Assembly (NCBI GenBank): GCA_002716385.1
Contig: PBAX01000023.1
Coordinates: forward strand, 62,001-126,000
DNA: 64,000 nt
Direction of reading: 5' to 3'
From: Phycisphaerae bacterium
GTDB lineage: Bacteria; Planctomycetota; Phycisphaerae; Phycisphaerales; SM1A02
A program made the position numbers and the translations under genes. Below, piece by piece: positions 28,559 to 31,314 of the stretch (position 1 is its first letter; the number at the start of each line of letters is the position of its first letter). Below the pieces are notes generated by a model. The model made no database searches. It was not told the DNA's origin and worked only from the letters and a program-made list of their open reading frames with translations.

Positions 28559-29953
28559 TCAAGCCACTCGGCGATCGAGCCCGTACCGCTTCATCTTCTT
28601 GTAGAGCGTCGTGCGATTGATGTCTAACGAAGTCGCCGTCTCCTGACGATTCCAGTTGTTGGCGTCCAACGCACCAAGAATGATGCGTCGCTCGGGAACT
28701 TCAAGCGCCTCGCGCAGTGTCAACCCGGGATCGACAGACGAATCCGTCTCGATAGAACCGATGGTCGTGGCTGCACGTGATCGCCCAAGATCGGATGGAA
28801 GATCTGCCTCGCCGATCACCACGCCCTTGGCCAGGACAACCGCCCTCTCCATGACGTTTTCAAGTTCACGTACATTGCCGGGCCAATCGTGGTCCCGAAG
28901 TCTGGAAGCCGCGACCTCGTCGATGCCGATCAGACGTCGCCCCAGCGACTCGGCCTTCTGTGCCAGAAAATGCTCGGCCAGAGGAATCACGTCTTCGACA
29001 CGATCTCGAAGTGAAGGAAGGCTGATGTCTATCACCTTGATTCGATAGTAAAGATCCTGCCGGAACGTACCCTCTGCCACCAGTTGTTCAAGTGGCTGAT
29101 TGGTGGCCAGAATCACTCTGGCATCGACTTCGATAGGCGTGTTGGAACCGACCGGCTCGACGACACGTTCCTGCAGAACTCGCAGCAGCTTCAATTGCAT
29201 CGATGGCGGCGCCGAATTGATCTCATCAAGGAAGATAGTCCCGCCGCAGGCTGCCTGGAACTTTCCTTGCTTGTCCGCATGAGCCCCTGTGAAGGCACCC
29301 TTGACATGGCCGAACAATTCGGATTCCAGAAGCGTTTCCGGAATGGAACCGCATGAAATCTCTACGAATGGGGCATCGCTTCGTGGGGACTGCTCGTGAA
29401 TGGCGCGGGCAATCATGCTCTTGCCGGTGCCCGACTCACCATTCATGAGGACCGTAGTCGGCGCCGCCGCCACGGACCGAGCCACCTCGAACACATGATG
29501 CATTCTGGGATCGCTTCCGACCATGGCGCCATAGTCGCCATCACCTTCTGCTTCAGGTCGAACCAACAGCTGGCTTCGTGTCAATGCCCGATCAACCGCC
29601 TCGCAAAGACGAGCCGTCGTCACCGGTCTGACAAGATAATCAGAAGCGCCTCGTCTCATCACGCCAACAGCGTCCTCGACGGTACCGAAGGAGGCCAGAA
29701 CAATCGGTACGACACCACTGCATCGCTGAGAGATATCCAGAACCTGCTGGCCATACTCGGCAATACCACCCAGCAGGATGACTCCGGGATTCTGCCCCTT
29801 GGATCGGAGTGATCGGATCTCATTGATGGGATCAATCGAATCACCGGGTATCGCGGGGTACCCTTCCGCCTGTAAACGGGTGCAGGTTGCCTGAGCAACT
29901 GATGGATCTGAATCCAAGACCAGTATTACCAACGATTTGTCTACGGCATTCAT
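28559..29953 (-). CDS. Sigma-54-dependent NtrC-family activator with degenerate receiver domain
   Basis: Protein of 464 residues. ATG 29953 is chosen because GGGAGG lies 8 bases upstream; the two preceding codons of the ORF track are TTG. Residues 1-125 form a receiver-like domain. It keeps the acidic pair (LDSD, Asp14 and Asp16), but the phosphoacceptor position reads LLGGIAEYG (Gly62) and the conserved Lys is Arg109. The AAA+ domain has Walker A GESGTGKS, the sigma-54 contact GAFTGA and Walker B GGTIFLDEI. A Fis-type helix-turn-helix ends the protein (NRQETATSLDINRTTLYKKM). It should activate sigma-54 promoters, but probably not through canonical phosphorylation. No paired kinase is adjacent. 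Confidence 0.92.
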   Translation of the reverse strand: MNAVDKSLVILVLDSDPSVAQATCTRLQAEGYPAIPGDSIDPINEIRSLRSKGQNPGVILLGGIAEYGQQVLDISQRCSGVVPIVLASFGTVEDAVGVMRRGASDYLVRPVTTARLCEAVDRALTRSQLLVRPEAEGDGDYGAMVGSDPRMHHVFEVARSVAAAPTTVLMNGESGTGKSMIARAIHEQSPRSDAPFVEISCGSIPETLLESELFGHVKGAFTGAHADKQGKFQAACGGTIFLDEINSAPPSMQLKLLRVLQERVVEPVGSNTPIEVDARVILATNQPLEQLVAEGTFRQDLYYRIKVIDISLPSLRDRVEDVIPLAEHFLAQKAESLGRRLIGIDEVAASRLRDHDWPGNVRELENVMERAVVLAKGVVIGEADLPSDLGRSRAATTIGSIETDSSVDPGLTLREALEVPERRIILGALDANNWNRQETATSLDINRTTLYKKMKRYGLDRRVA

Positions 29954-30083
29954 CAACAAGGCCTCCCATGGACAATCCCGGTGACTCCCCTCCGGGCACC
30001 GGGAAGGCCCGTGAGGTGCGGAATCGACACTTCTACGAACACGCTCAACTCAATGTTGCGTCAGGACAACAAATTCTTCTGAT

Positions 30084-30111
30084 TTGCCCTCACAAACGGA
30101 ACTGTTGTTAT
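30084..30111 (+). promoter_or_regulatory. Putative sigma-70-type promoter for the small RNA
   Basis: TTGCCC (30084-30089) and TGTTAT (30106-30111) each match four of six consensus positions, with a 16-base spacer. They would start transcription near 30117-30118, at the first base of the long-range helix. The match is modest and is supported mainly by its position relative to the terminator. Confidence 0.35.
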
Positions 30112-30116
30112 TACAG

Positions 30117-30273
30117 GACCTTATCCACAGGCATGTCACGTTGAGCTGAGCCCACAGATCAATAGTTGGAAATCCTGGAAAGGATTCTTGAATGGGCCCC
30201 TACCCCGAGTTAGCCTAAGGTCATGCCGCTGGGGAGCTTCTGGAGGAGAAAGCTTTTCAGCGGCTGTTTTTTT
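30117..30273 (+). ncRNA. Candidate structured small RNA, about 157 nt, own terminator
   Basis: Not a family I recognise. GACCTTA (30117-30123) is fully complementary to TAAGGTC (30216-30222), closing a domain of about 100 nt. Inside, GGC/GCC extends the closing helix. GCCCA/TGGGC forms an inner stem, and AATCC-TGGAAA-GGATT an apical hairpin, with a large unpaired region on both sides between them. A bulged hairpin with an outer 7-bp stem GCCGCTG/CAGCGGC then leads into TG and seven Ts (30267-30273). The T-run is on the plus strand only. A closing stem, bubble and apical stem resemble 6S RNA topology, but I see no conserved 6S sequence. It might instead be another regulatory RNA. Confidence 0.5.
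30225..30273 (+). terminator. Intrinsic terminator of the candidate small RNA
   Basis: GCCGCTG pairs perfectly with CAGCGGC. An inner AGCTTCT pairs with AGAAAGCT with one bulge around a GGAGG loop. TG then T7 follows. On the minus strand the same hairpin is followed by ATGACC with no T-run, so the terminator is oriented for plus-strand transcription and not for the UbiA-family gene. Confidence 0.8.
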
Positions 30274-30288
30274 CTCAATTGCGTGTGC

Positions 30289-31314
30289 TCAACGGAATCG
30301 CAGTCGGCCAGGCCCGAGTCCGGATACCTCCCGGGCAACCGTCATCACGACGAATCCGACCAGCCCGAATATCAGGAAGCCGACAGCCGGAATCCACATC
30401 CCCAGTGCCGCGAACCAGGCAGCCGCATAGGCGGCATGCCAGGCGGCACCGTAACGTTTAAGCCGTTCACTGGCACGTTGACCGGTCCCCGCCGTCCTGA
30501 TCTTCCACCAACCGATGAAGGCCATCAGAACGGTGGCCGCGAGCGGCCACATCAGATCCAAGGAACTGTCACCACCGGGCCACAGTGGCAGATCTCGCAG
30601 TGGTCTCACCAACAGAACCGCGGCTGACCAACAGCACCAACCAGCCAGGATTCCAAGAAAACCTCTTGGTGATATGCGAGGCCGCTTGTCCTCGAGCAAA
30701 TGGACCAGCAACGCCAGAATCATGACGTGACTCATGACCAGCCAGATGGCCAGCAAGAGCGGCATTCGATAACTGGGGATCAACATGTGGACCCCGTATA
30801 CGAGTCCTATGGTGACGATTCCGACCGGAGGTATGAAACGGCCGGCAGCGTTGTAGAACATCAGGGCCGCCGCCACGATCATCGTCAGGAAGACGCTGTC
30901 TCTGCCCAGCAGCATGGCACCTAGGATGGCGATCAGAAGTAGGCCGACCAGTCCGATGACCGCCTGCGTGATCTGGATGTTGCCGGCCGGCAGTGGTCGC
31001 TCGGGACTAAAGGCCCGATCGTGTCGAACATCCAGAAGATCGTTGAGAACCGACCCATATCCGAACAGACCGATGGCGACCATCAGGGCGCCCGCCAACT
31101 CGACCAGTAGCCCCGTCACGGTCCAATCGGAAATCTGATTTCGCCATCCGAGCTGTACCAGGACCGTGACGAACCAGATATCGCAGAGGGCACCGAATCC
31201 CGCAGCGATGCGGGTCAGTTCCACGGCAGTCAGGATCCTGTTGAGCATTCCAGCCATCAGAGCAACTTCCAGAGGCCGAATGGTGTTCCCAGCCGCCCGG
31301 CGAACCCGTACCAT
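30289..31314 (-). CDS. UbiA-family prenyltransferase, integral membrane
   Basis: Protein of 341 residues with about eight or nine hydrophobic helices. The first Asp-rich motif is present as NDLLDVRHDRAF (NDxxDxxxD), which binds the Mg-diphosphate of the prenyl donor. ERPLPAG follows, as in UbiA/MenA/chlorophyll-synthase-like enzymes. The acceptor cannot be deduced; quinone, haem or lipid prenylation are all possible. The first visible ATG is 31314; ATG 31257 (MAGMLNR) is an alternative that removes a charged leader. It is divergent from ribH with a gap of about 54 bases. Confidence 0.85.
   Translation of the reverse strand: MVRVRRAAGNTIRPLEVALMAGMLNRILTAVELTRIAAGFGALCDIWFVTVLVQLGWRNQISDWTVTGLLVELAGALMVAIGLFGYGSVLNDLLDVRHDRAFSPERPLPAGNIQITQAVIGLVGLLLIAILGAMLLGRDSVFLTMIVAAALMFYNAAGRFIPPVGIVTIGLVYGVHMLIPSYRMPLLLAIWLVMSHVMILALLVHLLEDKRPRISPRGFLGILAGWCCWSAAVLLVRPLRDLPLWPGGDSSLDLMWPLAATVLMAFIGWWKIRTAGTGQRASERLKRYGAAWHAAYAAAWFAALGMWIPAVGFLIFGLVGFVVMTVAREVSGLGPGRLRFR

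Follow-up and report, generated by a model that had tools for sequence, protein, structure and literature searches.

The plus strand of the intergenic region at positions 30084 to 30273 of the window (the whole stretch of 64,000 nucleotides of a Phycisphaerae bacterium contig that was analyzed) appears to hold a stand-alone gene for a non-coding hairpin RNA of about 50 nt, which would act in trans through a Shine-Dalgarno (SD)-like loop, a reading to which we assign a probability of roughly 0.6. That the gene exists, with the anatomy of a small RNA family described here, is very likely; that its loop acts in trans by base pairing is put at slightly under even odds. Comparison between genomes supports the putative promoter, the hairpin and the strand that carries it, the invariance of the loop, and the conserved genomic place. 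We are dealing with a real, conserved small RNA family that is smaller than and different from the RNA proposed in an earlier note on this DNA and that is apparently undescribed, as we found no description of the hairpin RNA in the literature (the Rhodopirellula-1 motif [PMC2864571] lay outside the comparison).

Homologues were collected by DNA similarity, a hairpin-only pattern, a covariance model, further pattern searches, and synteny from the UbiA gene, which yielded 30 sequences from 19 of the 45 sampled genera of one Phycisphaerales family. When 101 genomes were searched at the DNA level, seven gave matches, the genome of origin included, with the 3′ hairpin as their common part, and when the corresponding intergenic regions of other genomes are brought into a common orientation, they align with an almost invariant hairpin. 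The hairpin-only pattern search covered the family, and the covariance model covered 400 genomes of the order; genomes with homologues are mostly metagenome assembled, the closest members being Phycisphaerales assemblies (GTDB) such as UBA854, UBA3158, UBA3160, and ALOHA_ZT_39. The RNA occurs once per genome, which rules out a repeat element, and mostly at a conserved genomic place; among 29 further genera whose UbiA locus was inspected, 21 showed no sign of it there. Three other copies of TTCTGGAGGAGA in the genome of origin lack such a terminator hairpin and resemble coding sequence. Matches in families f2, f4, and f6 were discarded as ordinary mRNAs with CTGGAGGAGA as their SD or as sequences in which such a hairpin is not combined with a T-tract. 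In genus g79 of family f2, loci L057, L058, and L059 share a conserved leader ahead of a short secreted-type protein, which consists of a TTG-17-TAnnnT promoter, a GC-rich hairpin, and a CTGGAGGAGA SD.

The hairpin itself, of the terminator type, occupies positions 30225 to 30264 of the plus strand and has 17 to 18 bp, one bulged purine on its 3′ side, and an apical loop, GGAGGAGA, at positions 30242 to 30249. The earlier note had recognized this bulged GC-rich hairpin, the T7 tract that follows on the plus strand (positions 30267 to 30273), and the lack of any plus-strand protein gene ending there, all of which we confirm. The folding z score of the hairpin is −4.0 at the window locus and averages −5.2 over 26 homologues. 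When the ten homologues found first are aligned, the 19 stem pairs are formed in 97.4% of cells, two-sided changes occur in 8 of the 19, and the covariation score is reached by none of 500 shuffles; in a control in which the pairing partner was slid by 1 to 3 columns, the covariation was lost. From an alignment of seven genomes that spans the entire intergenic region, RNAalifold predicts the 3′ hairpin as the sole structure.

Stem arms are 43 to 46% identical between genera, and every sequence still forms a hairpin of 17 to 23 bp. The loop is 100% identical across all 30 homologues, an invariance that is partly a selection effect because several of the homologue searches used the loop as a query. 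GGAGGAGA is also present in homologues retrieved by plain DNA similarity, and no UbiA flank was found to carry the promoter followed by a hairpin with a different loop. Because selection keeps the spacing of the promoter, the pairing of the stem (not its sequence), and the sequence of the loop, the loop is probably the working part of the RNA. A protein-coding reading was rejected: chance open reading frames span the site, but homologues diverge with compensation in the stem.

Directly 5′ of the hairpin lies a putative promoter composed of a −35 element, TTGAAT (positions 30188 to 30193, plus strand), and a −10 element, TAGCCT (positions 30211 to 30216, plus strand), with a spacer of 17 nt. 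The corresponding pattern, TTG-N(16-18)-TAnnnT, is found in this place in 29 of 30 homologues (0.46 expected from shuffles) and in 21 of the 22 homologues recovered by searches that did not use the promoter. Ten aligned homologues are gapless from −35 to −10, and the distance between −10 and the hairpin varies by up to 4 nt, an arrangement that fits a promoter ahead of a start site. The hexamers are only moderately similar to those of Escherichia coli sigma-70, and a scan requiring 9 of 12 consensus positions misses them.

With a start some 7 nt beyond the −10 element and termination in the T-tract, we infer a transcript of about 50 nt (about positions 30223 to 30273, plus strand; 44 to 71 nt in homologues, with a median of 56), which is probably in essence the hairpin alone. 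Its strand is indicated by the T-tract, since at least five T's within 9 nt after the hairpin are present in 29 of 30 homologues on the plus strand versus 2 of 30 on the minus strand. The plus strand also gives the better fold in 25 of 26 homologues, and the G-U pairs, which account for 78 of 539 in the homologue stems, would break on the opposite strand. A minus-strand reading, as the 3′ untranslated region of the UbiA gene, was accordingly discarded (T-tract absent in 28 of 30, fold weaker). The locus, with its predicted transcript, combines what characterizes a terminator-ended bacterial sRNA gene: a promoter and a terminator of its own, non-coding sequence, and conservation across genera.

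The earlier note had instead proposed an independently transcribed RNA of about 157 nt, closed by a long-range helix between GACCTTA (positions 30117 to 30123, plus strand) and TAAGGTC (positions 30216 to 30222, plus strand). A stand-alone, plus-strand, non-coding gene with a terminator survives from this proposal, but its length does not, since the conserved promoter at positions 30188 to 30216 sits 3′ of most of the proposed RNA. The two 7-mers are exact complements, as claimed, but 47% of dinucleotide shuffles of positions 30084 to 30273 also contain an inverted 7-mer pair separated by 40 nt or more. The left arm lies outside the family-wide RNA, and the right arm is made up of the final nucleotide of the −10 element together with those leading up to the start. 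Nor is there support for the apical hairpin, inner stem, and large bubble drawn between the arms, because the interior (positions 30117 to 30222) folds no better than shuffles (z of −0.23; 75 of 200 as good). A promoter-like pair had also been placed upstream of position 30117, where the consensus scan finds none and where conservation of the second hexamer fails even within the genus.

Covariation among relatives, which the note had named as a check, is borne out for the 3′ hairpin and fails family-wide for the long helix: across 25 sequences, the −10 region has no excess of upstream complementarity (mean z of +0.11). Within the genus of origin, five sequences keep the 7-bp helix 91% paired, 4 of its 7 pairs have changed on both sides, the covariation score is matched by 4 of 500 shuffles, and RNAalifold applied to these sequences also picks the helix, as would be expected if this genus made a longer RNA of about 157 nt closed by GACCTTA and TAAGGTC, perhaps as a second transcript. 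This within-genus signal is weak, since it comes from just five related sequences and the region aligns poorly, and the frequency with which such a pair arises by chance, the missing family-wide signal, the overlap of the right arm with the conserved −10, and the shuffle-like folding of the interior make the longer RNA highly unlikely.

A resemblance to 6S RNA (RF00013) had been suggested from the topology of the longer RNA. The likeness, an analogy of the earlier reader only, consists of an independent transcript with a terminator, whereas 6S RNA has a closing stem, a large open-promoter-like bubble, and an apical stem in about 150 to 200 nt; here, the interior folds like shuffles, and the seven-genome consensus contains the 3′ hairpin alone. 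The proposed check against Rfam with Infernal, 6S models included, gave no match at the site. Rfam 15 yielded no family at the gathering threshold in the window, at the site under permissive filters, or in five homologous loci (only weak, unrelated matches), and RF00013 had no match in the window or in those five loci. With a better 6S candidate on another contig, C22, 6S identity was rejected for the hairpin locus. That candidate, the sole 6S-like match in the genome of origin (G000:C22:48717-48870, equivalent to L001 1501 to 1654, minus strand), is full length though below threshold (29.3 bits; cutoff of 46.4) and is likely the genome's 6S RNA, in a lineage for which the Rfam 6S model appears to be a poor fit.

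In the window, the RNA is flanked by a divergent gene for a sigma-54 activator (positions 28559 to 29959, minus strand), an adjacency correctly given in the earlier note, and by a convergent gene for a UbiA-family prenyltransferase (positions 30289 to 31314, minus strand), beyond which lie ribH, nusB, and an FtsY-like gene. The activator has a Fis-type helix-turn-helix and a degenerate, receiver-like N terminus (Response_reg score of 16.6 bits, below the cutoff). In other genomes, too, the RNA usually has a UbiA-like gene converging on it from one side and a histidine kinase/sigma-54 regulator locus diverging from it on the other. Genus g31 lacks the UbiA neighbor and retains the kinase, and genus g41 carries the RNA 3′ of UbiA in the same orientation; the general function of the RNA can therefore be neither to act as an antisense to UbiA nor to insulate UbiA from the regulator. 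Genus g1, unlike other genera, has no kinase between the sigma-54 activator and the RNA.

Two further elements lie on the regulator side of the intergenic region. Positions 30051 to 30075 contain a dyad-like element (AATGTTGC...GCATCATT in members of the genus, AATGTTGC...CAACAAAT here), whose CATGTTG...CAACATG counterparts precede kinase/regulator genes in other genera; it is possibly an operator of the divergent regulator locus. Positions 30083 to 30105 hold a block, GCCC(C/T)(T/C)ACAAACGGAACT, that is strongly conserved within the genus and that is better placed to control the divergent regulator gene than to serve as a plus-strand promoter.

Under the reading that we prefer, a housekeeping-type promoter (positions 30188 to 30216) would start transcription near position 30223, and RNA polymerase would make one long hairpin and stop in the T-tract behind it. 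The RNA would then consist of little besides its terminator hairpin, whose tip keeps GGAGGAGA exposed, and this loop may work in trans as an SD-like, G-rich seed. Its predicted targets are CU-rich, either segments of other RNAs that resemble UCUCCUCC or the CCUCC of the 16S rRNA 3′ end, and such pairing would make the RNA a decoy or a sponge. Its action would be independent of Hfq, because no Hfq was found: PF17209 has no match in 16 genomes of the family, the genome of origin included, while control genomes were positive. CU-rich RNA, the 16S anti-SD, and CsrA are candidate partners, and the 8-nt loop could also be a protein site instead of a base-pairing seed. The most extended form of the proposal, in which a terminator-hairpin RNA serves family-wide as an SD mimic without Hfq, is a decoy that captures the ribosomal anti-SD, CU-rich sRNAs, or CsrA, and is coupled to a two-component locus, is tentative and, in our judgment, rather doubtful.

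Binding of CsrA by the loop is a fair rival to base pairing. The GGA loop would then make the RNA an antagonist of the Csr/Rsm type that keeps CsrA off mRNAs, with the neighboring two-component locus in control; BarA/UvrY (GacS/GacA) controls CsrB. The RNA resembles CsrB/CsrC and RsmX/Y/Z in having GGA in a hairpin loop (twice here), a two-component locus nearby (its usual neighbor being the histidine kinase/sigma-54 regulator locus), and CsrA in the genome. CsrA is encoded in 177 of 181 genomes of the family, usually in two copies, and because it is nearly universal, its presence or absence is uninformative as a test. The two CsrA-type genes per genome are a canonical and a divergent one (e.g., G000:C27:139416 and G000:C1:99011), and genera g2, g6, g18, g28, g42, and g43 show only the divergent CsrA. 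Many genera with canonical CsrA, however, lack the RNA at the UbiA locus, and a single hairpin of about 50 nt offers one site, whereas CsrA-family sRNAs normally have several. CsrA binds preferentially to RUACARGGAUGU or to ANGGAN in a loop and favors weak stems (PMC7652899), but neither ANGGA nor ARGGA occurs in any of the 30 homologue loops, all of which are GGAGGAGA, and the 17- to 23-bp stems are far more stable than CsrA prefers. Moreover, the regulation of CsrA in Planctomycetes has been proposed to be the task of FliW (PMC4682653), and we regard a Csr/Rsm-type antagonist as unlikely.

The loop might also act on the ribosome directly, its SD mimic docking on 30S subunits and tuning initiation. 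GGAGG is a perfect complement of the anti-SD; of the 8 positions of GGAGGAGA, 7 are complementary to UCACCUCC, the known 16S end; and in other parts of the order, CTGGAGGAGA functions as an SD located a few nucleotides 5′ of ATG (L040 and L057 to L060). A stretch of the genome of origin that contains GGATCACCTCCT, used as a stand-in for the 16S tail although not clearly 16S, forms a duplex with the loop of about −11 to −14 kcal/mol; because neither of the two GGATCACCTCCT stretches found is clearly 16S, only the universally known anti-SD was used for the comparison. Pure anti-SD pairing, however, leaves the invariance of the A at loop position 6 unexplained, as this base mismatches the anti-SD and never becomes U, and SD use by the genes of the window is weak (GGAG upstream of 15 of 35, versus 6 in the offset control), which together render a direct 16S decoy quite unlikely. 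A further alternative is a plain terminator or insulator between converging units, its loop fixed for terminator efficiency, and a strong hairpin with a T-tract is nearly always present, in most genera at the UbiA/regulator locus position. We nonetheless consider it very unlikely: there is no same-strand gene to end, a promoter lies directly ahead in 29 of 30 homologues, terminators have no need of an invariant 8-nt loop on freely changing stems, and the RNA persists in g31 without a UbiA neighbor and in g41 downstream of UbiA on the same strand.

For a small hairpin RNA with a predicted trans-acting loop, the closest analogue in design is the alpha-r14 sRNAs of Alphaproteobacteria (NfeR1 and its relatives, the "cuckoo" RNAs), which display an ultraconserved short loop motif, CCUCCUCCC, on stems of highly different sequence and of which NfeR1 is tied to the NtrBC two-component system (PMC10746234). 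They differ in carrying the anti-SD loop CCUCCUCCC on three hairpins, whereas the RNA described here, from Phycisphaerales, is a single hairpin of about 50 nt with a loop of the opposite polarity (SD-like GGAGGAGA). Membership in the alpha-r14/cuckoo group was rejected because the loop of the transcribed strand is GGAGGAGA, not CCUCCUCCC, and because the opposite strand is without a T-tract in 28 of 30 homologues. RosA of Bacillus subtilis and RsaI of Staphylococcus aureus are stand-alone sRNAs whose G-rich regions pair with C-rich sRNAs (PMC8216469), and the hairpin RNA is like them in being a stand-alone sRNA with a G-rich region, which would have a similar pairing role. RosA, however, is about 225 nt long with several G-rich regions and has no known sequence relation to the hairpin RNA.

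To our knowledge, very little is known about the regulatory RNAs of Planctomycetes. Because the 8-nt loop never varies in this family, the promoter is conserved, and the genomic place is mostly fixed across 19 genera, the gene, its size, and its partner lend themselves to direct testing. If the reading as an SD mimic or decoy is true, this would be an unusually small regulatory RNA and a mirror image, of opposite polarity, of the CCUCC-loop sRNAs of Alphaproteobacteria.
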